DNA from: Alistipes sp.
GTDB lineage: Bacteria > Bacteroidota > Bacteroidia > Bacteroidales > Rikenellaceae
Direction: 5' to 3'
Assembly (NCBI GenBank): GCA_017398555.1
Contig: JAFQFV010000007.1
Location: 1-64,000 of the forward strand
DNA: 64,000 bases
Shown: piece after piece, positions 24,738 through 36,556 of the stretch
How the letters are laid out: each line of letters starts with the position of its first letter
Position numbering within the stretch: position 1 is the stretch's first letter
Program-made: the position numbers and the translations under genes
Notes under the pieces: generated by a model
Told to the model about the DNA's origin: nothing
The model's input: the letters and a program-made list of their open reading frames with translations, nothing else
Databases searched by the model: none

Positions 24738-24909
24738 AGTGCAAAAGTAACAAAAATGTACAAATAAAAAAACTTTGCTACTAATTTGTTTTTTACACGG
24801 ATATTCCTTAATTTTGCTCGCTATTTGTGCGCATGCGTACGTGTGTGCTAATGACACGGTTTTTAGAACTTATTTTTACTTTTTTTAATACTAATTAACA
24901 CAAAGCGTT

Positions 24910-27900
24910 ATGAAAAACATTTTTCGTTCGATCCTTCTTTCAGCTGTAGCGCTGACTGCAGGATTTGCAGTTTCGTGTACCGATCCGGCTCCGGAGAATG
25001 GCCACTACGAGGGTACTCCGACCATTTCGGTATCACCTGCATCGGTAACAGTACCTCTCGCCGGTGGCACGACTGAGGCTATCACTGTTACTACTCCGGC
25101 TGAGTGGACACTCACCATCGATGCCGAGGATGTTGTTGCAAGCACAACAGCCGGCAATGGTGATGGTGTTGTAACTTTCGAGGTACCTGCTGTTGAGGCT
25201 ATGCGTACTATCAAGGTTACATTTACTGCAACCGGTTATGTAAGCGGCTTCCCTATCACTAAGAAGGCAAGCGTATCTATCTCTCAGACCGATACTGAGG
25301 TTCCTTCAGTAGATGGCCCATTCGTTTACTACGACAACTGCGGTGAGGCAGTATCTAAGGTTGACGGTTATTGGCCATATGTTGATGCATACACTGGTTG
25401 GGCTCCAACTGGTGGTGAGGGCTATGACCAGAGCGGTGTTACCTACACTGGTAAGAACGCATCTGTTCGTAACTCTGGTAAGACTTGGGCTCCTGTAGGC
25501 GCTACTTATGCTACTGACGCTCCTTATGCTTACCTCCAGGCAAAGAGTGACACTCAGTTTGTAATCAACAACATCAACATTAAGAGCGGTGTTAAGAACT
25601 ACACCTTCTCTTTCACTGCGTTCAACCAGTACGCATCTCTTATTGCATCGCCTTACACTCCTGTTGTAGCGGCTCTTGAGTCTGGTAAGAACCTTACCGT
25701 TGAGGTGAGCGTTGATGGTCAGAATTGGGGTGCTAGCGCATTTACAACAATGCCTGACGGTAACTGGACTTATGCTATCGCTCCATTTACTCTTCCTGCA
25801 GACGCTGACAAGCTCTTCGTTCGCTTCTCAGGCTATAAGGCTGACACTACTACTCCACTTCCTGATACAACATATCAGTATCAGGCAGCTCTTCGTTTCG
25901 ACGACTTCCGTCTTGTTGAGGGTGGCGAGGGTCCTGTAGTTGATTTCAACAACACCGGTGCTGGCGGTGGTGAGGTTGTAGAGGGCACTATCGAGTCTAT
26001 CCTTGCAGGTGGCGAGGGCAACTACTCACTCAAGAACGCTTGGGTTGTTGCTACATATGGTCGCGGTTGCCTCATTACTGACGCATCTGGCAAGTATATC
26101 CTCTGCTATATGGGTTCAGACAAGACCATCCCTGCTGTTGGTGCAGTAGTAGAGGTTAATGGTGCGGTAACTACCTACGCAGGCCTTCTCCAGTTCGGTG
26201 ACACTGCTGTTGTTACCGCTACAGGCGAGACTAAGAGTGTAGATCACGGTACTGCTGCAACTATGACAGGCGCAGACCTCGACGCATACGTTTCTGCTCC
26301 AGCTGTTAAGTATGCTTCATTTGAGGGTGCACTCGCTATCAGCGGTAACTACTACAACGTAACCGTTGAGGGTGCTACAACTGCTATTGGTTCACTCTCT
26401 TACCCTGCAGGCGAGATTGCTACACAGCTCTCTTCTCTTAATGGCAAGGGTATCAAGGTTACAGGTTACCTTATCGGTGTATCAAGCGGCAAGTTTACTA
26501 ATATGATGGTAACAGCTGTTGTAGCTACAGGTAATGACCCAGAGCCAAAACCAGAGCCAGAGCCACTCGAGGGCACATTTACCCTCATCAACTCTGTTGA
26601 TCAGGTTAAGGCAGGTCAGTACTATATGGCAGGTTATGCTGAGGAGTACAATAACCAGGGTAATATTACTACATTCTCTCCATATCCATACCACATGTGG
26701 ACAGGCGGTATCAATGCTGGTTCAAGTGGCTCTGACCTCATGACTGTAAACTACAGCTATACAGAGGGCAAGCTCCAGCTTAACCCTAACCTCTCTGCAC
26801 AAGATGCAGCTAAGGGTACTGCACAGCTCGTTGAGCTTATCGCTGTAGATGGCAAGACTAATACATATTACATCAAATATGGCGAGAAGTACCTCACTTG
26901 TACTGGCAAGCGTGCTGCTGCACTTGTTGACACTCCTGCTGAGTGGGCATTCTCTGCACACGCAAAGGGTGGCATCTGTCTTACCGACGTTGCAAACAAC
27001 ACAATCCTTGGTACTGCTGGTGCTACTTACAATATGCTTCGCGGTTATGTTTCTCCTGCATCTTCACTGCTCTATGGTGTAGTATTCTTTGCTGTTTCAG
27101 ACGGCACAGTTACCCCAGACCCTACTCCGGACCCAGAGCCAGAGCCAGAGCCAACACCAGGCGAGGCAAAGACTATCGCTGAGATTCTTGCTGCTGGCGA
27201 TGGCGCAGCACTCTCTGGCACTATCGAGGGCGTTGTTGTATCAAATATGGACCTTAACAACCTCACTTCAAAGAAGGGTCTTTATGTTCAGGACGAGACC
27301 GGTGCACTTCAGTTCTACCTCGCTGCAAACCACGAGCTTGCTTTCGGTACAAAGGTTCAGATTGACCTTACAGGCACAACTCTTGGTCAGTACAATGGTG
27401 CAGTTCAGGTTAGCGGCCTTGCTCTTGAGAAGATTACTACCGTATCTACCGGCAACACAGTAGAGCCAAAGGTTGTAACTATCGCTGACTTCCTTGCAAA
27501 CAAGTATGAGGGTCAGTATGTTGCTATCGAGGGTGTTCAGGTTGCATCTGCAGACCTTGCAAAGACTTGGGTTACAGGCGGTGCTCACACATCTATCAAT
27601 ATGGAGGATGCAGCAGGCAACAAGTTTGTTGTATTCTCTTCAAAGTATGCTTCTTACGGTGCTGAGACCGTTGCACAGGGTTCTGGTACTATCAAGGGTA
27701 TCTCATCTATCAACAACGGTACAATGCAGATTATCTTTGCTCAGGCATCTGACTACGCATCTCTTACCGGCGAGCGCTTTGACACAGGTACAACTCCTGA
27801 TCCGGAGCCAGAGCCAGAGCCAACTCCAGACCCAACACCAGGCGAGGGCACTACTGTTACCGCTACTTTCAATCAGATGGGCTTTACAAATGCACAGACA

Positions 27901-28239
27901 GTTGATGGTGTTGATATCAAGGTTGATGACAACGTAATTGTCAAATTTAGCAAAGCTAATTCAGGTACTGCTCCTGCATATTACGATGCAAGCAACGGCA
28001 TTCGTATGTATCAGAACGGAGCTACACTTGATGTAACTGCTAATGGCAAGACAATTACTAATATTGAGTTTGTATTTGATTACAGCCAGTGGTACCTTGG
28101 TGCAGATAGCGGTACACTTTCAGCTGAGGGCGATACTCGCACTTGGACAGGCTCGGCTACTGCTGTTAAGTTCACTTCAACAGGTACTGACAAGACCCAC
28201 AGAGCTTACATTAAGGCGATGACTATCACCTACAAATAG
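24910..28239 (+). CDS. multidomain surface lipoprotein (BACON, anchor-type, OB-like/DUF5689)
   Basis: A 1109-residue lipoprotein, Cys23 in GFAVSC followed by TDPAPE, consistent with surface export in Bacteroidetes. Modules in order: BACON domain (about 38-130, TPTISVSPASVTVPLAGG); a choice-of-anchor-like jelly roll (about 138-340, FVYYDNCG ... LRFDDFRLVEGG); an OB-like domain (about 360-545, EGTIESILAGGEGNYSLKNA); a beta-rich module (about 555-745, TFTLINSVDQVKAGQYYMAG); a DUF5689/OB-like domain (about 765-975, KTIAEILAAGDGAALSGTIEG); and a C-terminal beta sandwich (about 990-1109). Pro-Glu-Asp-rich linkers (DPEPEPEPTP type) separate them. No catalytic site is visible, so it is probably a binding or display protein. 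It heads the nuclease-TonB locus and is followed by a terminator-like hairpin that may reduce expression downstream. Confidence 0.8.
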   Translation: MKNIFRSILLSAVALTAGFAVSCTDPAPENGHYEGTPTISVSPASVTVPLAGGTTEAITVTTPAEWTLTIDAEDVVASTTAGNGDGVVTFEVPAVEAMRTIKVTFTATGYVSGFPITKKASVSISQTDTEVPSVDGPFVYYDNCGEAVSKVDGYWPYVDAYTGWAPTGGEGYDQSGVTYTGKNASVRNSGKTWAPVGATYATDAPYAYLQAKSDTQFVINNINIKSGVKNYTFSFTAFNQYASLIASPYTPVVAALESGKNLTVEVSVDGQNWGASAFTTMPDGNWTYAIAPFTLPADADKLFVRFSGYKADTTTPLPDTTYQYQAALRFDDFRLVEGGEGPVVDFNNTGAGGGEVVEGTIESILAGGEGNYSLKNAWVVATYGRGCLITDASGKYILCYMGSDKTIPAVGAVVEVNGAVTTYAGLLQFGDTAVVTATGETKSVDHGTAATMTGADLDAYVSAPAVKYASFEGALAISGNYYNVTVEGATTAIGSLSYPAGEIATQLSSLNGKGIKVTGYLIGVSSGKFTNMMVTAVVATGNDPEPKPEPEPLEGTFTLINSVDQVKAGQYYMAGYAEEYNNQGNITTFSPYPYHMWTGGINAGSSGSDLMTVNYSYTEGKLQLNPNLSAQDAAKGTAQLVELIAVDGKTNTYYIKYGEKYLTCTGKRAAALVDTPAEWAFSAHAKGGICLTDVANNTILGTAGATYNMLRGYVSPASSLLYGVVFFAVSDGTVTPDPTPDPEPEPEPTPGEAKTIAEILAAGDGAALSGTIEGVVVSNMDLNNLTSKKGLYVQDETGALQFYLAANHELAFGTKVQIDLTGTTLGQYNGAVQVSGLALEKITTVSTGNTVEPKVVTIADFLANKYEGQYVAIEGVQVASADLAKTWVTGGAHTSINMEDAAGNKFVVFSSKYASYGAETVAQGSGTIKGISSINNGTMQIIFAQASDYASLTGERFDTGTTPDPEPEPEPTPDPTPGEGTTVTATFNQMGFTNAQTVDGVDIKVDDNVIVKFSKANSGTAPAYYDASNGIRMYQNGATLDVTANGKTITNIEFVFDYSQWYLGADSGTLSAEGDTRTWTGSATAVKFTSTGTDKTHRAYIKAMTITYK

Positions 28240-28252
28240 TATTTACTATCCT

Positions 28253-28289
28253 CTTGGTGGGGGAGGATGCTCCCCTGCCAAGATTTTTT
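28253..28289 (+). terminator. hairpin between surface lipoprotein and nuclease genes
   Basis: CTTGGTGGGGGA pairs with TCCCCTGCCAAG (two G-T pairs) around a 6-base loop and is followed by ATTTTTT. The nuclease ATG is only 7 bp beyond, so it could act as an attenuating terminator setting a high ratio of lipoprotein to nuclease. Confidence 0.75.
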
Positions 28290-28295
28290 ACCACG

Positions 28296-29537
28296 ATGAA
28301 TAGACGACTTTTATACCTGCTGCTTGCAGCATTTACAACAATTTTAACTTTTTGGGCTTGTGACAATGAGGACCCGTGGTCACCATACCAGTCAAAGGCC
28401 TCACTGAGTCACAATACAAAGGGTTGGGACGAAACTACCATAACACTCAAGACTTCAGGTGATATTCGTTTCACCTGGGAGGCAGTTATTGTTGAGGGCT
28501 ACGAGTGGGCCTCTTTCAACTCATCTTCAGAGCAGATTTCGACTACAGGCAAGGTTGGAAACAACGCCACAATCTACTTTGATGCTAACGACACAGCCGT
28601 ATCGCGTTCGGCTACGGTTTTTATAAAATTCTCCGACGGATATAATACAACACTCTCTTTCACTCAGCTTGTCAAGAGTGAAAACACATCATACGACAGA
28701 GCGTGGGGCGAGCAGCCTGCACACACCTCTGGTGCCAATTTAGTCCATAAGACCTACTACACTACCCTATCTAACGGGCAGTATGTGCGTAACTACTCCA
28801 TTTGCTACGATACCGACAAGTTGGTATCTCGCTGGGTGGCTTACCCACTGCACGAGGTCTATACAAACGGTCGCAGCTACCCTGGTGGCGGTAGCGGTAG
28901 AACAGACGCGTGGGCATTTGACGATGCAATTACCGAGTACTACAATGGTGGCTACCAGATTGTAGAGTACGAATATACCGACCCTGTAATTCCACAATCA
29001 AAGCAGCAGAACATTGTCGAGGGCGCATACGGCACAGGCGACAGCCGCGGTCATATGCTTCCTTCAGCATCACGCTATAGCACCTGGATGACAAATGCTC
29101 AGACCTTCTATGCAACCAATATGATGCCACAGAACAGCAAGTTCAATAGCGGCGTATGGGCAACTGTTGAGAATGGTGCTCGCAAAAACGTCTGCGCCGA
29201 TACTCTCTACGTTGTTGTAGGTACTCTGTTTGAGGGGGCCAAGACCTTCACTGCTCGCGGAAGAACTATCACCCGCCCTACTCACGCCTATAAACTGCTG
29301 CTTAGAACAAAGAGTGGCAACTCGAAGAAGAGTATCTCTCAGATTACCGACCCTAACGAGATTAAGGCTATCGGTTTCCTCTTTGCCAACGAGTCAAACG
29401 CTGTATCATATCAGCAGGCTGTTGTCTCAATCAAGGAGGTTGAGGAGCGCACAGGATTTACCTTCTACCAGAACCTCAATCCGGCTATTGCCGACAAGGT
29501 GAAGAGTCAGAAGAACATAAACGATTGGAGTTTCTAA
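28296..29537 (+). CDS. NUC1-type DNA/RNA non-specific endonuclease lipoprotein
   Basis: A 413-residue protein. The signal ends in LTFWACDN with a lipidation Cys, so it is membrane-anchored and probably surface-exposed. Residues about 25-135 form a BACON-like beta domain (ASLSHNTKGWDETTITLKTS). The C-terminal half is the beta-beta-alpha-metal nuclease: DSRGHMLPSA with catalytic H253, then FYATNMMPQNSKFN with the metal-binding Asn (N275) and WATVEN. The usual DRGH is here D-S-R-G-H, a variant found in bacterial members of the family as I know them. Such Mg-dependent nucleases cut DNA and RNA of any sequence. The ATG at 28296 is chosen because the upstream in-frame region lies in the hairpin. 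An 18-bp gap separates it from the next nuclease gene. Confidence 0.9.
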   Translation: MNRRLLYLLLAAFTTILTFWACDNEDPWSPYQSKASLSHNTKGWDETTITLKTSGDIRFTWEAVIVEGYEWASFNSSSEQISTTGKVGNNATIYFDANDTAVSRSATVFIKFSDGYNTTLSFTQLVKSENTSYDRAWGEQPAHTSGANLVHKTYYTTLSNGQYVRNYSICYDTDKLVSRWVAYPLHEVYTNGRSYPGGGSGRTDAWAFDDAITEYYNGGYQIVEYEYTDPVIPQSKQQNIVEGAYGTGDSRGHMLPSASRYSTWMTNAQTFYATNMMPQNSKFNSGVWATVENGARKNVCADTLYVVVGTLFEGAKTFTARGRTITRPTHAYKLLLRTKSGNSKKSISQITDPNEIKAIGFLFANESNAVSYQQAVVSIKEVEERTGFTFYQNLNPAIADKVKSQKNINDWSF

Positions 29538-29555
29538 ATAAAAACATATCACATT

Positions 29556-30590
29556 ATGAAAAAACTACTTTTAACCACACTGCTCGTTGCAGGCGTATTT
29601 ATGAGTTGTTTTGCACAGAAGCCTCACATGGTTGTCTTCTACAACCTTGAGAACCTGTTCGATACAATCAACGACCCTGACAAGTTGGACGAGGAGTTCT
29701 TGCCACAGGGCGTAAAGAAGTGGAATAGTACCAAGTACTACCGCAAGCAGAGCAACCTGGACAAGGTATTCTTCGACATTGCACTTATCAACCGACAGTT
29801 CCCTGCCGTTATCGGTGTATCCGAGATTGAGAACCGTCTGGTACTTGAGGACCTTGTTACCCAGCCAAAGATGAGCGCAGGTAACTACCGCATCGTTCAT
29901 TACGACTCTCCTGACCGTCGTGGTGTAGATTGCGCATTCCTCTATCGTCCTGACGTCTTCAAACTTGAGGGCAGCAAGGCTCATAAGTTCGAGATGCCGG
30001 GTTGGGAGAACTTTTATACCCGTGACCTTGTAACTATGTGGGGAACAATCGAGGGCGAGCCATTCTTCTTCCTCGTTTCACACTGGCCATCTCGTCTTGG
30101 TGGCAAGGAGGCATCCGACCCTAAGCGTGAGGCTGCAGCTGCGCAGTGTCGCCGTATTGCAGACTCTGTACGCACTGCCAATCCAAATACAAAGGTTGTA
30201 ATTATGGGTGACCTTAACGATGATGCTACAGATAAGAGCATTACCGAGGTACTTGGCGCAAAGGCTAAGATTAACAAACTTGCAGCAGGTGACCTCTACA
30301 ACCCATATATCGACCTTCTGAAGGCCGGTTATGGCACTTTGGGTTATCGTGACTCTTGGAATCTGTTTGACAACATCATAATCTCTGAGAACCTCGCAAC
30401 AGGCTCTACAGGTAAGCTCAAGATTGTTCGCGCAGAGAAGAGTAAGTTCTACGGCAATATCTTCTCTCGTCCATATATGATGCAGCGTGAGGGTCAGTAT
30501 CGCAACTATCCATTGCGTACCTTCGTTGGTAACAACTTCCAGAATGGTTTCTCTGACCACCTTCCTGTATTTATCTACGTTGGAAAATAA
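29556..30590 (+). CDS. secreted endonuclease/exonuclease/phosphatase family protein
   Basis: A 344-residue EEP-superfamily (DNase I-like) enzyme with a signal peptide (cut expected after CFAQ; the MSC preceding could alternatively be a lipobox). Motifs are complete: YNLENLF at 29-35, metal-binding Glu in VSEIEN (89-93), DRRGVDCAFLYR, VSHWPSR with catalytic His, MGDLNDD and the terminal GFSDHLPVF. Members hydrolyse phosphodiester or phosphomonoester bonds in nucleic acids, nucleotides or inositol phosphates. Between a NUC1 nuclease and a TonB receptor, a role in trimming nucleic acid outside the cytoplasm is the simplest reading. Confidence 0.9.
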   Translation: MKKLLLTTLLVAGVFMSCFAQKPHMVVFYNLENLFDTINDPDKLDEEFLPQGVKKWNSTKYYRKQSNLDKVFFDIALINRQFPAVIGVSEIENRLVLEDLVTQPKMSAGNYRIVHYDSPDRRGVDCAFLYRPDVFKLEGSKAHKFEMPGWENFYTRDLVTMWGTIEGEPFFFLVSHWPSRLGGKEASDPKREAAAAQCRRIADSVRTANPNTKVVIMGDLNDDATDKSITEVLGAKAKINKLAAGDLYNPYIDLLKAGYGTLGYRDSWNLFDNIIISENLATGSTGKLKIVRAEKSKFYGNIFSRPYMMQREGQYRNYPLRTFVGNNFQNGFSDHLPVFIYVGK

Positions 30591-30602
30591 TCACTCTAAT
30601 AT

Positions 30603-33467
30603 ATGAAAAAACTTCTACTTTTAACACTGTTTGCCCTCTGCTCTTTCGGCGTTTATGCTCAAAGTGGCATTAAGGGTCAGGTTGTATCCCGCAACGGCAG
30701 AACGGCCGTGGGTCAGGTCAAGGTAACTCTTGACGCAACCGGTCAGAGCGTTACCACTGATGATAATGGTAACTTTATCTTCCCTGAACTTGAGAAGGGT
30801 GACTATCGTCTGTTGTTTACCGCACCGGACTTTGAGTCTCTCGAGGTTATGGTTCGCGTAGATACAAATATGCGCGATCTTCACACTGTCATCCTTGTTC
30901 CGACCTTCCGTAATGAGATTATTGATGACTCTATCTTTGCCGAGTTTGACAGCGACTCTTCAGCATCAGACACTCAGGCTCTGCCATCAACTCTCAACTC
31001 TTCAAAGGATTTGTACAACAACATCGCCTCTTACCGCTTCAGCGAGATGCGTTTCAATGTGCGTGGATACGACTCTATGTACCAGGATGTATATCTGAAT
31101 GGTATCCGTTTTAACGACGCTATGACAGGCTACGGTCCTTGGTCATTGTGGAGCGGTCTTAATGATGCAACCCGTAACCAGGAGAGCTATGCAGGTCTTA
31201 CCCCTACCGATTACGGTGTTGGTGGCTTCGGTGGTACTACTAACGTAAACGCTCGTGCATCGCAGATGCGTAAGGGTTTCCGTACAAGTGTATCAAATGC
31301 TAACCAGATGTACCGTTGGAGAGCTATGGTGTCATACGCATCAGGTGCTCTTGACAATGGTTGGTCATACGGTTTCTCTGTATCTACTCGTCAGGGTGGT
31401 AACGGCTATGTTGATGGTATCTACTACAACTCTTACGGTTACTTTGCATCTGTAGAGAAGCTCTTTGGCACCAAGCATCGCCTTGCGCTGACCATTTTGG
31501 GTACACCACAGCAGCGTGGTGCACAGCAGGCATCTACACAGGAGGCTTACGACCTGTTTGGCAGCAACTACTACAACCCTAACGTTGGTTATCAGGATGG
31601 CAAGCTGCGTAACACCCGTGTACGCCGTACTCACGAGCCTATCGCAATGCTCAACTACTACTTTGACATCTCTGACAAGACTCGCCTTACCGTTGCAACC
31701 TCTCTTCGTTTCGGTTTCAATGGCTACTCTGCACTCACTTGGAAGGATGGCGCAGATCCACGCCCAGACTACTATCGTTATCTGCCATCAAACTACCTAA
31801 GCCAGATTACCCCTGAGATTCCGGGTATCTTCGATGCAACTACAGATACACAGATTGAGAACTATGTGAGCGGTGCTATCAACGCTATTCAGATTTGGAA
31901 CGGCTATATCGACTTCGACCGTATGTTCAACCTCAATCGCCGTGAGGACCCTAACACATCGGAGTATGCAAGCGGTTTCCGCTCTAACTATATGATTGAG
32001 GAGCGTCGTACAGACCAGCTCGACTACAACTTTGTTGCAAATATCTCTCACGAGTTCAACGCTAACCACCGTATCATCGGCGGTCTGAAGGCTCGCGTAA
32101 ACCGCACAGAGTACTACAGCACCGTTAAGGATCTGCTTGGTGGTGACTATTGGCTTGATATCGACAAGTTCGCAGAGCGTGATAAAGGTAGCGATGTTAT
32201 CGCTTATCAGAACGATGTGGACTACTACAACGAGCACGGTCACGCTCGCGTAGTGAAGGAGGGCGATAAGTACAACTACGACTACTACGCACACCTCCGT
32301 CAGGCACAGGTTTGGGCTCAGTATGGCCTTACTTTGGGTGGTTTCAATATGAATTTGGGCGCTGAGGTTGGTTATAGCTCAATGTGGCGTCAGGGTCTGT
32401 GGCGCAAGGGTCTTTTCCCTAACGGTAACGACTCATTCGGCGACTCAAAGCACCTTAACTTCCTCACTTATAAGGCTAAGGCTGCTTTTGCATACCGTTT
32501 CTCAGGTGCTCACTCACTCTCTCTCAATGCTTCGGCTATTGCAGACGCACCTAAGTTTGCTGCTGCATTCGTATCTCCTCGTACTCGTAACCACCACAAC
32601 CCTGGTCTTACCACCGAGAAGATTTACAGTGCTGATATTACCTACAACCTCAATCTGCCTTATATCAAGGCTCGTCTGTCTGGTTACTTTACTCAGATGA
32701 ACGATTTGGCAAAGGTTATCTCTTACTATGACGATACCCAGTCTTCATTTACCAACTTCGCTATGTCTAATATCGACAAGCGCTATATGGGTGTTGAGTT
32801 TGCTATCAACGTTCCTATTTGGGGCGGTATCGCATTCCAGGGTGCTGTAAACTATGGTGACTACCGTTACACATCAAACCCTAACTTCGTACAGATTATC
32901 GACAATAGCGCAGAGGTTGTGCTGGTAGATAAGGTAAATTGGAAGAACTTCTTTGTAGAGAGCACTCCGCAGGTGGCTGTTAATGTTGGTCTTGACTACC
33001 GCAGCTCAAACAATTGGTTTGCATCTATCAACTTCAACTACTACGACAAGCTCTACCTCTCTATGAACCCTGCTTACCGTACAAACAACGCTGTTAAGTC
33101 TTACGTTGAGGTTCTCTCTAACGAGAATGCAACAGATGAGGCTAAGGTTTGGGCGCTGACCAATATCGGTAAGATGCGTGAGCAGGAGTACCTTGGCAAC
33201 GCTTACACTCTGAGCGCAAGTGTTGGTAAGAACTTCTACATCAAGCGCAACTATATGCTCGGATTTAGCTTGGAGGTTAAGAATATTCTCAACAACCAGA
33301 CCATCAGAACAGGTGGTTATGAGCAGATGCGTATGCGTCGTACACGAGGCTACAACGGTACTGCAGCCGGTTCAAACCCTGCAGAGCCATTCTACTCTCG
33401 CTTTGACTCAAAGTACTTCTATATGCTGGGAACAAACTACTTCCTTAACCTTTACTTCAGATTCTAA
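30603..33467 (+). CDS. TonB-dependent outer-membrane receptor
   Basis: A 954-residue receptor: signal peptide ending in VYAQ, a carboxypeptidase-regulatory-like domain (about 22-100, GIKGQVVSRNGRTAVGQVKVTL), a plug (about 130-235, FNVRGYDSMYQDVYLNGI, GVGGFGGTTNV), then a 22-strand-type barrel ending in aromatic residues (YFLNLYFRF). No SusD-like gene accompanies it, so it is not a SusCD glycan importer. It follows the EEP nuclease by 12 bp and precedes a DUF5689 lipoprotein by 12 bp, so it probably imports what the nucleases release (nucleotides, oligonucleotides or phosphate). That substrate is inference. Confidence 0.92.
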   Translation: MKKLLLLTLFALCSFGVYAQSGIKGQVVSRNGRTAVGQVKVTLDATGQSVTTDDNGNFIFPELEKGDYRLLFTAPDFESLEVMVRVDTNMRDLHTVILVPTFRNEIIDDSIFAEFDSDSSASDTQALPSTLNSSKDLYNNIASYRFSEMRFNVRGYDSMYQDVYLNGIRFNDAMTGYGPWSLWSGLNDATRNQESYAGLTPTDYGVGGFGGTTNVNARASQMRKGFRTSVSNANQMYRWRAMVSYASGALDNGWSYGFSVSTRQGGNGYVDGIYYNSYGYFASVEKLFGTKHRLALTILGTPQQRGAQQASTQEAYDLFGSNYYNPNVGYQDGKLRNTRVRRTHEPIAMLNYYFDISDKTRLTVATSLRFGFNGYSALTWKDGADPRPDYYRYLPSNYLSQITPEIPGIFDATTDTQIENYVSGAINAIQIWNGYIDFDRMFNLNRREDPNTSEYASGFRSNYMIEERRTDQLDYNFVANISHEFNANHRIIGGLKARVNRTEYYSTVKDLLGGDYWLDIDKFAERDKGSDVIAYQNDVDYYNEHGHARVVKEGDKYNYDYYAHLRQAQVWAQYGLTLGGFNMNLGAEVGYSSMWRQGLWRKGLFPNGNDSFGDSKHLNFLTYKAKAAFAYRFSGAHSLSLNASAIADAPKFAAAFVSPRTRNHHNPGLTTEKIYSADITYNLNLPYIKARLSGYFTQMNDLAKVISYYDDTQSSFTNFAMSNIDKRYMGVEFAINVPIWGGIAFQGAVNYGDYRYTSNPNFVQIIDNSAEVVLVDKVNWKNFFVESTPQVAVNVGLDYRSSNNWFASINFNYYDKLYLSMNPAYRTNNAVKSYVEVLSNENATDEAKVWALTNIGKMREQEYLGNAYTLSASVGKNFYIKRNYMLGFSLEVKNILNNQTIRTGGYEQMRMRRTRGYNGTAAGSNPAEPFYSRFDSKYFYMLGTNYFLNLYFRF

Positions 33468-33479
33468 ACTATTGATACT

Positions 33480-34763
33480 ATGAAATTTATCAAAATATAC
33501 GCTATCGCACTCATCAGTCTGCTGTTTGTAGGCTGCTATGAGCAGTTTGATACTCCTACAGTCCCTGCTGTGATGACTGACGAGCTTATGCAGGCACAGG
33601 GTATGGAGCATCTGACTATCGCTCAGATGAAGAGTATGTTCGGTGAGTTGAATAACTCAGGATCTACCAACTCTCAGGCTGAGACTAAATACAAGCGCTT
33701 TGTTCTCGACGAGTCGGAGTGCACCGAGTATGAGCTGGACAACAACCGTTATATCGTAGGAAACTACTATATCAAAGGCAAGGTTGTGAGCAATGACGAG
33801 CAGGGTAATATCTACAAGTCACTCCACATCTTCGACGGTACAGCTGCCATCGAGCTTAAGCTCACTAACGGCCTTTTTGCCGAGTTCCCTTGCAACCTTG
33901 ACACAAAGGAGAGCTGCTGGGTATATGTTCGCCTTACAGGCCTCTATTTGGGTAGTTTCCGTATGATGCTCTCTTTGGGTGACATCCCTACCGAGAGCCT
34001 TAACGCTTACGGTATCTACAAGTACTACGCAAACTCAAATATCGTATCTCCAAACCGAGTTGCACAGTTTGTCTTCAAGGGTGAGGATTGCACCCTTACA
34101 GAGGGTAAAAATCCGACTGACGATATCTACGTTGTCGAGAACTATGAGGAGTCAAAGAGCATCTATAACAAGGAGTTCCTCGGTCGTCTTATCCGCTTTA
34201 AGAACCTGCAGGTTACATATCGCGGTGTAGCAGATGAGAGCGGCTCTGAGCCTTATCCTGCACTTACCAGCGGTAGCAATACCAATATCTACCCAAGCTG
34301 GCTCTGCACCAGCGGTATTGTTGTAGATGGTGCTGTGCAGTATGTTGTCAGCAAGCCTTGGTATAAGCTCGCCTACTCTATCAACAACATCTGTCTCTAT
34401 GGTAGTATCGCTCTTTGCTATCCTGAGGCTTTGAGCACTACCCACGCCTCTACCCCTGGCTTCTATACAGCTCGTACCAGCGGTTACTCTCGCTTTGCTA
34501 ACAGAGTAGTACCACAGGACGGTGCAACAGGTAGTGTGCTTGCAATCTACGCTATCTACTCACACAGCTACAACTTCTCTAAGACTAACGACCAGAGCGC
34601 TGCTTTCCAGCTCAGCACCTGCCGTTTCCAGGACTTCCTTCCTGAGTACTACAATAGTCTTACAGATGACAAGTTGGCTGCTTGGGAGTCTTGGATTGAC
34701 GCCAATACCCCTGAGGACTCAGTTGCCCTCCCTCAGACCCTGAAGGACGACGATATGGAGTAA
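33480..34763 (+). CDS. DUF5689 lipoprotein
   Basis: A 427-residue lipoprotein (signal MKFIKIYAIALISLLFVGC, Cys19) of DUF5689. The N-terminal half shows the expected IVGNYYIKGKVVSNDEQGN followed by YKSLHIFDGTAAIELKL, an OB-like fold; the C-terminal half is an Ig/OB-like domain ending in QDFLPEYY. Together with the TonB receptor it may form a surface lid or binding partner, as SusD does in glycan systems, though it is unrelated to SusD in sequence. The giant lipoprotein at 24910 carries a related domain, tying the locus together. It is the last gene of the locus; a strong terminator follows. Confidence 0.83.
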   Translation: MKFIKIYAIALISLLFVGCYEQFDTPTVPAVMTDELMQAQGMEHLTIAQMKSMFGELNNSGSTNSQAETKYKRFVLDESECTEYELDNNRYIVGNYYIKGKVVSNDEQGNIYKSLHIFDGTAAIELKLTNGLFAEFPCNLDTKESCWVYVRLTGLYLGSFRMMLSLGDIPTESLNAYGIYKYYANSNIVSPNRVAQFVFKGEDCTLTEGKNPTDDIYVVENYEESKSIYNKEFLGRLIRFKNLQVTYRGVADESGSEPYPALTSGSNTNIYPSWLCTSGIVVDGAVQYVVSKPWYKLAYSINNICLYGSIALCYPEALSTTHASTPGFYTARTSGYSRFANRVVPQDGATGSVLAIYAIYSHSYNFSKTNDQSAAFQLSTCRFQDFLPEYYNSLTDDKLAAWESWIDANTPEDSVALPQTLKDDDME

Positions 34764-34783
34764 TCCGCAGTAAATATTTATGA

Positions 34784-34820
34784 AAAAGATTGCCAAACAT
34801 TGTATTGGCAATCTTTTTTT
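34784..34820 (+). terminator. terminator of the nuclease-TonB locus
   Basis: AAAAGATTGCCAA/TTGGCAATCTTTT with an 8-base loop, running into T residues. Confidence 0.88.
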
Positions 34821-34858
34821 GTATATTTGTGAAAACTAACCCCTTAAACATTACAACT

Positions 34859-36556
34859 ATGAGACGGTTTGTTATCATTATCATCTCTTTATTCGCATTT
34901 TTTACCCCTATTTATGCGCAGCGTCCTATAACAGAGGAGGATGAAAATGTTACTGCCGAGATTCGCAAGAGATACCCAAAACACTCACTCTCTTACAACG
35001 AGGAGTATGGTGTATATCTGTTGAGTGAGACTATCACACCAAAGAGCCCAAAGTACAGTGATTATAACCGATACAGCCTTTTAGATAGTAAAGGTAACGA
35101 ACTGTTCCCCAATTGTTCATTTACTAAAATTTACTTCCGCTCGGCAGATGAATTAAACAAAAACTACTATCCATACATTGAGGCGCATCTTGAAAAGACA
35201 ATGTGGGCGCTATCTTTTGATGGACGATGGCGTACAATGCCTATAAAGGGGAATATATGGTCTTTTAAGAGAAAAAACAATCAGACCCAGAAGACAAGCA
35301 TATTCTATTCACTGCCTGAATACCCACTAAAATACTCTCCAGAAAGCGGTTTTTATCTTGGTTACTATAGCAATCAAAAAAAGAAGAAGGCTCCTAAAAT
35401 TAAGGGTGCTTTGTGGATAGACATCAACGGTAATTCCACATATAAATCCCCTATTCCAGAGTCAAAAGATAAGATTATAAAGATGCTTGAAGAGCGATAT
35501 AAGATAGGTGTTCTCTATGATGCAGCAACGCACACCTACCGCGTGGTTAATGGCGCGTTGTGCGATGAGAATGGCAACGAGTTGGTACCTCCAGCAAAGG
35601 ATAATGAGTATACTTGGTCAAAGTTCTATCAAGGTTATGCTCTTGTACACAATGCCCAGACCGGAAAATATGGTATCTATAGCCTCAAGGGCGAGCGACT
35701 TATACCCGTAGAGCATTATGGCATTGAAATAGAACACGACAGAACTAACACATATAGATACTTCGTCTGTCACACAACTGCTCAGAAAACATACGATGAT
35801 AATTACAACGCCACCATTTACGATATGGCGGGCAATATGCTCATACCCCCATATTACGGTAGCATCAGCCAATATCACAATGAACATGGATTCTGTATGA
35901 GATATGCATATACTCCAAGCCAAACTTGGTTCAAAATATTTCTTGATGAAAATTCTATACTTGACCCATCTCGCAGCGAGGAGATTGACTACTCTATTCC
36001 AGAGGCATATTTTGCACGAATTAAGGCTAACGAAGAGCGTCGTATAGAGGAGGAGCGACTTGCCGCACAGCGTCGTGCAGCAGCCGAGGCGGCAAGGATT
36101 CAGCGACAGCAAGCTTGGCAAGAACTCGCTGCTGCAGTCGGTAATTTGGCTACAAATGTTAATAATGCCATCAACCAACATAGTGGCAGCAGAACATACT
36201 CCACTACCCCGACATACTCACGCTCTACTACCGCCTCAAGCAGCAGCTCTGTTGCCAATACGACAGATATTCAGCACTGCAAGAGCTACTATCGCCAGTG
36301 GGAGAACAAGGCTGGATCCTGGATAAACAATTTTACCAAGGAGCAGGCGTGGTTTAAGGCAAACAAAAATACGATAGTGTCACAACTTGAACTTACAGGC
36401 CATCAACGCAGTCGTAGCGACGCACGCGCACAGTTAAAGAACATCCAGGGTATGCTACAGAACTACCGCTCTCGCGCAGCAAAGGCGGGAGGCAATATCC
36501 CTAAAGGCAATATAGAGTCGCAGATTGACGCACTGCTCAACCAACCAAACTATTAA
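34859..36556 (+). CDS. WG-repeat-like secreted protein with coiled coil
   Basis: A 565-residue protein with a signal peptide (ending IYAQ). The N-terminal 380 residues contain WG/KWG-like beta units (SLLDSKGNELFPNCSF, GALCDENGNELVPPA, GIYSLKGERLIPVEHYG, TIYDMAGNMLIPPYYG). A charged coiled coil follows (about 385-430, EERRIEEERLAAQRRAAAE), then a Ser/Thr-rich stretch and a helical C-terminus with a second Lys/Arg-rich helix (GHQRSRSDARAQLKNI). WG repeats form beta-propeller or solenoid-like scaffolds of unknown ligand. Start at 34859 because the signal peptide begins there; an in-frame ATG at 34790 lies inside the upstream terminator. Function unknown. Confidence 0.75.
   Translation: MRRFVIIIISLFAFFTPIYAQRPITEEDENVTAEIRKRYPKHSLSYNEEYGVYLLSETITPKSPKYSDYNRYSLLDSKGNELFPNCSFTKIYFRSADELNKNYYPYIEAHLEKTMWALSFDGRWRTMPIKGNIWSFKRKNNQTQKTSIFYSLPEYPLKYSPESGFYLGYYSNQKKKKAPKIKGALWIDINGNSTYKSPIPESKDKIIKMLEERYKIGVLYDAATHTYRVVNGALCDENGNELVPPAKDNEYTWSKFYQGYALVHNAQTGKYGIYSLKGERLIPVEHYGIEIEHDRTNTYRYFVCHTTAQKTYDDNYNATIYDMAGNMLIPPYYGSISQYHNEHGFCMRYAYTPSQTWFKIFLDENSILDPSRSEEIDYSIPEAYFARIKANEERRIEEERLAAQRRAAAEAARIQRQQAWQELAAAVGNLATNVNNAINQHSGSRTYSTTPTYSRSTTASSSSSVANTTDIQHCKSYYRQWENKAGSWINNFTKEQAWFKANKNTIVSQLELTGHQRSRSDARAQLKNIQGMLQNYRSRAAKAGGNIPKGNIESQIDALLNQPNY

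Follow-up and report, generated by a model that had tools for sequence, protein, structure and literature searches.

A candidate TonB-linked nucleic-acid importer with two nuclease-type genes in an Alistipes genome

The stretch of DNA analysed here (the window) comprises 64,000 nucleotides of contig JAFQFV010000007.1 from the Alistipes sp. assembly GCA_017398555.1. It carries five consecutive genes, g1 to g5, which, judging from sequence, probably encode a TonB-linked outer-membrane nucleic-acid importer of Bacteroidia, here in a form with two additions, a large lipoprotein and a NUC1 nuclease. The system is of a known, little-studied kind, and the window holds a variant of it with two nucleases. 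We favour the importer because of the homology and layout shared with a transformation operon of Riemerella anatipestifer, the EEP-family gene adjoining the barrel gene, published TonB data, the absence of secretin matches from the genomes searched, and selection on g2-g5. The five genes are as follows.

24910-28239, + strand: g1, large lipoprotein of 1109 amino acids (aa), with DUF5689 at aa 771-948
28296-29537, + strand: g2, NUC1 (Endonuclease_NS) lipoprotein
29556-30590, + strand: g3, secreted EEP enzyme (Exo_endo_phos_3)
30603-33467, + strand: g4, beta-barrel, probably plugged, relative of TonB receptors and of RA0C_RS04915
33480-34763, + strand: g5, DUF5689 lipoprotein, homologue of the DUF5689 part of RA0C_RS04920

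As the initial annotation of this DNA had stated, all five open reading frames (ORFs) lie in one direction, on the + strand, and the gaps between them, given there as 12-56 bp, measure 56, 18, 12 and 12 bp. That annotation had proposed conserved synteny as a check, and the g1-g2-g3-g4-g5 order indeed recurs in relatives of the same genus, which argues that the arrangement is more than chance.

Relation to the Riemerella transformation operon

R. anatipestifer, a bacterium of ducks, is the source of the sole genetic data on homologues of the barrel and its lipoprotein. A 2021 transposon screen for natural transformation in this species named RA0C_RS04915 (predicted outer-membrane protein, pfam13620) and RA0C_RS04920 (DUF5689 and DUF5017), which form a predicted operon; according to the available text of the article, markerless deletion of either gene lowered transformation from 5.4e-5 to below detection, about 4.2e-10 (PMC8459023). 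Speculatively, its authors assign DNA binding to 04920 and the role of channel to 04915, and they invoke a further, unidentified protein that produces single strands. In the same available text, RS04910 is named once, as a transcription control, the word 'exonuclease' does not occur, and the EEP gene beside the barrel is not among the deletions; homologues are described as wide in Bacteroidetes and, elsewhere, RS04915 as found only in Flavobacteriaceae (PMC8459023).

A barrel match at E ≤ 1e-60 is present in 291 of the 296 genomes sampled from the family labelled f29. At locus L186 (genome G356), recA is followed in order by a DinB-like gene, three succinate dehydrogenase-like genes, comEC, two further genes, EEP, barrel and DUF5689; here RecA, Competence, PF19580, pfam13620 and DUF5689 come from Pfam scans and the other neighbours' names are our own reading. 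The lipoprotein also shows DUF5017, below cut-off, beside DUF5689. Locus tags conventionally step by five, and if they do so here, the spacing at L186 (recA, comEC five genes on, the barrel four after that, DUF5689 one further) is that of tags RS04870, RS04895, RS04915 and RS04920, which would put the EEP gene in the slot of RA0C_RS04910. L187 and L188 repeat the gene order of L186, and L189 and L190 show EEP-barrel-DUF5689 with no comEC in the stretch. In f29 genus g147, comEC and the barrel are about 4 kb apart in three of six genomes checked. The G356 barrel is 65% identical to that of the large f29 genus g29; the value given for Riemerella and Chryseobacterium in the available text is 65.9% (PMC8459023).

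The barrel of the window aligns with that of L186 over its full length (28% identity, E 7e-109), and in a tree of 33 type A, 5 type C and 1 type B barrels the type A members, window and L186 included, form a single clade with a support of 0.98. The g5 lipoprotein matches a set of DUF5689 sequences headed by that of L186 (100%, E 7.8e-52). At the sequence level, g4 and g5 are homologous to RA0C_RS04915 and RA0C_RS04920, the identity of the latter pair being taken via L186. The capture and import of nucleic acids proposed in the initial annotation gains from this homology to two transformation-essential genes, whereas the nutritional purpose proposed with it, by analogy to polysaccharide utilization loci, is not established; we found nothing that ties homologous receptors to a substrate other than nucleic acid. 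Besides the full-length barrel homologue with its pfam13620-type extension, from the same clade, the two systems share a DUF5689 lipoprotein gene directly downstream, an EEP gene adjoining the barrel and a genome without a secretin match. They differ in that the EEP gene is divergent in Riemerella and co-directional in the window, that the window adds NUC1 and the large g1, that the Riemerella lipoprotein has DUF5017 whereas Pfam finds DUF5689 only in g5, and that DprA is shortened in the window's genome.

The barrel, its neighbours and their spread

Pfam, whose matches to the window proteins were taken at E ≤ 0.01, detects CarboxypepD_reg-type domains in g4, with no match to Plug or TonB_dep_Rec. 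In profile comparison, g4 matched an alignment of three receptors (98%, E 1.4e-13) with the plug aligned, each receptor having a Plug match (one weak, E 0.0036) and a barrel match, and it matched the family of type C paralogues (100%, E 3e-105), a scanned member of which has a Pfam Plug match. The earlier designation of g4 as a TonB receptor thus holds as a relationship recovered by profile comparison, not as a Pfam assignment. Among solved structures, the barrel profile matched domains of the CarboxypepD type and the N-terminal domain of a SusC homologue; its match to the TonB-dependent porin OprC was weak (E 0.0098). In Riemerella, mutation of tonBA or tonBB reduces transformation and only tonBB alters iron acquisition; for tonBA the authors suspected an effect on nutrient supply, as the available text has it (PMC8383284). 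A TonB-linked DNA channel would be our own reading of these data. Type C barrels at L036:7291-11816 and L045:6973-10930 are also followed by a lipoprotein gene (with DUF5017 in L036 and no Pfam match in L045), and the L036 barrel has a Plug match.

The pilus/secretin uptake of Gram-negative bacteria would accomplish the same step, but secretin (PF00263) was matched in none of the 21 genomes searched, against 6 of 14 controls. Some Bacteroidota do carry a PilQ-like protein, Flavobacterium johnsoniae among them, according to the available text of PMC7965970. A SusC/SusD glycan locus likewise clusters a TonB-receptor relative bearing a CarboxypepD_reg extension with surface lipoproteins and degrading enzymes; here, nucleases replace the glycan enzymes. 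The lack of SusD noted initially was confirmed by zero matches among the five proteins in Pfam and NCBIfam, and no SusC-family match was found either, and membership of the glycan loci was rejected on these grounds. The NCBIfam scan of the five proteins returned below-cut-off matches only. Viral carriage was also considered and rejected: four pattern-matching stretches occur in viral contigs, none of them related to g4.

Type A barrels were found in 28 of 37 genomes of the genus, two of which, G009 and G026, hold pieces of it at the ends of contigs. Of 24 other families of the order, each represented by one genome, 9 have the barrel (G045 has a piece of it). Among 247 genomes from across the phylum, at least 90% complete except for the window's own, which is 89% complete and counted, 39 have a type A barrel at E ≤ 1e-100, comprising 39 of 61 genomes of the class and 0 of the 186 others. 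Barrel matches include Chitinophagaceae, Saprospiraceae and others among the best 80 of 579 matches to a query from Chitinophagaceae. At G282:C19:401300-404102 the type A barrel match extends over two adjacent frames, one of 491 and one of 461 aa.

Gene neighbourhoods were read at 47 other type A barrel loci, a subset of those found. EEP adjoins the barrel in 43 of them, the exceptions being G037, G077, G097 and, at a contig edge, G048; it is co-directional with the barrel in 22 loci (19 from the genus, plus G298, G290 and G044) and divergent in 21. NUC1 is present in those 22 co-directional loci and in 0 of the 25 others. A g1-like match accompanies 17 of the 19 genus loci, and the remaining two, G018 and G025, are cut there. 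Two further regions that were read, in G020 and G013, lack a type A barrel. DUF5689 follows the barrel in all 11 loci that were Pfam-scanned there (L038, L039, L041, L042, L161, L164, L166, L167, L169, L171 and L186), and in several relatives the DUF5689 and DUF5017 parts are carried on one or two genes.

Of the two enzymes, g2 has an ORF listed from TTG 28254, from which its residues are numbered here, while ATG 28296 is the start of the signal peptide. It matches Endonuclease_NS (PF01223; 8.9e-34), and NUC1 residues R265, G266, H267, N298 and E306 are invariant in 17 of 17 sequences. At the Asp position of the DRGH motif in the same 17 sequences, the window and five relatives have Ser, three have Ala or Val, and eight have Asp. 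The NUC1 nuclease motif of the initial annotation is accordingly borne out by the family score and the His/Asn/Glu site, with SRGH rather than DRGH in the window sequence. SRGH is described as a signature of ExoG, a 5'-3' exonuclease, in the available text of PMC6547421.

The Pfam match of g3 to Exo_endo_phos_3 (PF19580; 1.5e-115) covers nearly its whole length. Residues N30, E32, E90, E92, R122, D125, H176, D219, N221, D334 and H335, which presumably serve the EEP active site, are invariant in 24 of 24 sequences. Family and residues support a secreted EEP enzyme; the word nuclease, as used initially, follows from family membership. Similarity to the surface nucleases ExeM/NucH (4.3e-7; 29 of 300 bits) and MnuA (8.5e-4; 19 of 185 bits) is weak and far below both family cut-offs, and we know of no transport gene that belongs to these two families. 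Elsewhere in the window's genome, at L035:5679-8995 (G000:C25), an Exo_endo_phos (PF03372) protein directly precedes a type B barrel, which has no Pfam match and branches beside the type A clade; this may be another enzyme-importer pair.

The DUF5689 assignment of g5 was reproduced (3.3e-21), and g1, whose length and sequence vary among relatives, contains the same domain (1.9e-33). BACON domains, attributed initially to g1, were not recovered at E ≤ 0.01, apart from one sub-cut-off match (E 0.006) in a homologue. The OB-like character persists weakly only: g1 matches ExeM/NucH at E 0.0028, and two DUF5689 homologues have weak OB matches (E 0.0053 and 0.0016). The scores of g1 and g5 for the NCBIfam M949_1556 lipoprotein are far below cut-off, and this model was not used. 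The DUF5689 profile found no match among solved structures. Two more DUF5689 proteins are encoded elsewhere in the same genome, at L002 (G000:C34) and L003 (G000:C37).

Three sites flank or interrupt the gene row:

24785..24816, + strand: match to the Bacteroidetes-type promoter TTTG-N20-TAATTTTG, upstream of g1
28252..28283, + strand: terminator-like hairpin at the g1/g2 junction, 14 pairs followed by T6
34782..34819, + strand: terminator-like hairpin after g5

Exact matches to TTTG-N20-TAATTTTG, which we take to be the Bacteroidetes promoter consensus, number five in the window, where 100 shuffles gave 0.40 on average and 3 at most, and none lies between g1 and g2. Terminator-like sites are no more numerous in the region than chance would give (10 found, 9.3 expected), and the evidential weight of the g1/g2 hairpin is in its strength and conservation. 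In all six relatives folded (G003, G029, G028, G030, G006 and G002; no shuffle control), the junction has a hairpin and T run, with different letters and a similar stem and T run. Since this conserved hairpin follows g1 and no exact promoter match separates g1 from g2, g2-g5 are probably read by run-through and g1 made in excess, and a single operon of five equal genes is doubtful. Downstream of the g5 hairpin, positions 34790-36556 encode a 588 aa protein with a one-mismatch promoter match and no Pfam or NCBIfam match; it adjoins g5 in G029 and G028 too (92-93%).

Transformation, feeding or clearance

The window's genome encodes a ComEC of 500 aa, a ComF-like protein of 238 aa, NamZ (DUF1343), a DprA homologue and a protein in which HHH_3 occurs in three stretches. 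In all 20 genomes searched, among them the Riemerella-like one, ComF scores below the model cut-off. ComEC, DprA and HHH proteins are found in 60, 57 and 60 of 61 relatives, and because they are nearly universal, their co-occurrence with the barrel is little informative. Four genomes (G010, G016, G049 and G053) have neither a DprA match nor a barrel and are only 70-79% complete.

The DprA homologue of the window's genome, at 292 aa, has no winged helix and several altered stretches. In five sister genomes, this one among them (G000, G003, G006, G028 and G029; L224:2922-3800 and L225-L228), DprA is about 290 aa long and ends before the winged helix; the five differ at several stretches from the 367 aa DprA of G030 (the DprA_WH domain was scanned in G000, where it is missing, and in G030, where it was found). 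DprA identity is 52% within this subclade (10 pairs) versus 69% in 7 reference pairs, whereas barrel identity is 90% and 86%, respectively. The DprA w of 0.20 in the subclade (8 of 10 pairs computable) versus 0.17 in the reference pairs shows that the gene is not drifting freely, and ComEC identity is 51% in the subclade and 49% in the reference pairs. For g2-g5, w against the window copy is 0.05-0.11; these genes are under purifying selection. Together, the altered DprA, the constrained g2-g5 and the barrel genomes without a ComEC, HHH_3 or NamZ match hint that in some lineages, among them that of the window, import has a use beyond classical transformation.

It is quite conceivable, although short of an even chance, that the locus serves food only, with g2 and g3 digesting DNA or RNA outside the cell and g4 importing the pieces for phosphate, carbon or bases, without a link to transformation here. 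Two nuclease-type genes beside surface lipoproteins would suit such a use, as would NUC1 in all 19 genus barrel loci read and in G298, G290 and G044, the absence from the subclade DprA of the DprA_WH found in G030 while the barrel stayed conserved, and the retention of barrel, EEP and DUF5689 in G038, which has no ComEC match. Yet the genetics of the homologues concerns transformation, ComEC, ComF-like, HHH and NamZ homologues persist in this genome, DprA shows a w close to that of the reference pairs, and ComEC is as divergent in those pairs as in the subclade. The same homology, the operon layout shared with Riemerella, the transformation-gene homologues and the lack of a secretin speak for a machine of the Riemerella type that takes up DNA for transformation, with or without feeding, in which ComEC, ComF, the HHH protein and DprA would act inside and the extra nucleases would size long DNA. 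We regard this as possible but rather doubtful, given that DprA is shortened and altered in the five sister genomes, that ComEC, HHH or NamZ is missing from some barrel genomes, that ComF stays below cut-off throughout and that a second surface nuclease would destroy transforming DNA.

An unlikely explanation is that the nucleases clear DNA, be it biofilm matrix, host DNA traps or foreign DNA, while the barrel imports phosphate compounds, a cofactor or the like, the neighbourhood being regulatory rather than mechanistic. EEP does occur without the barrel, g1-g2-g3 occur without it in G020, and PF19580 could act on another phosphoester; however, the barrel and DUF5689 genes are essential for Riemerella transformation in the available text of PMC8459023, and no NUC1 was seen at that locus.

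Several points weigh against the importer itself. DNA import is demonstrated for no member of the barrel family, and for Riemerella the idea of a channel is speculative on the authors' own account, as the available text has it; F. johnsoniae carries homologues, yet the authors could not transform it under their conditions (PMC8459023). The identity of the L186 locus with the Riemerella operon rests on its gene order. PF19580 occurs in 60 of 61 relatives, whereas 9 of 37 genus genomes lack the barrel, so EEP is not tied to it, and G020 (L253:2686-6507) keeps g1-g2-g3 with no barrel or g5 in the stretch read, showing that the enzyme part can stand alone. The nuclease-family scores of the PF19580 protein are far below cut-off (29 of 300 bits for ExeM/NucH), and the EEP profile has no match among solved structures. 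Among the barrel genomes, G038 (99% complete; L042) has barrel, EEP and DUF5689 but no ComEC (PF03772) match, G057 has no HHH_3 match, and G007, G024 and G041 have no NamZ match.

In the importer as we picture it, the surface DUF5689 lipoproteins g5 and g1 would catch extracellular DNA, and the TonB-linked plugged barrel g4 would be the channel, as its homology and the Riemerella genetics suggest. The EEP enzyme g3, placed at the channel by synteny and equipped with an intact set of active-site residues, may cut or trim the DNA; the lineage would add the second nuclease g2, and g1 would probably be made in excess, given the hairpin that follows it. We tentatively suggest, at somewhat less than even confidence, that with its added NUC1 and decaying DprA this importer has turned from gene uptake to eating DNA, and that a TonB-powered plugged barrel, a DUF5689 catcher and a coupled EEP enzyme replace pilus and secretin in Bacteroidia.

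Little is understood of how DNA crosses the outer membrane of Bacteroidota, and the 21 genomes searched gave no secretin match. The 2021 screen named two genes and, in its available text, left the nuclease open (PMC8459023). Our literature search, which left most subscription papers and preprints outside its reach, found neither a TonB-dependent DNA importer of Bacteroidota nor the EEP neighbour described. What is new here is the link of the two genes to a conserved EEP neighbour and to TonB receptors, and an enlarged Bacteroidales form with a second nuclease. If the feeding reading is true, DNA would be a nutrient with its own dedicated importer; if the transformation reading is true, competence may be wider in Bacteroidales than known.

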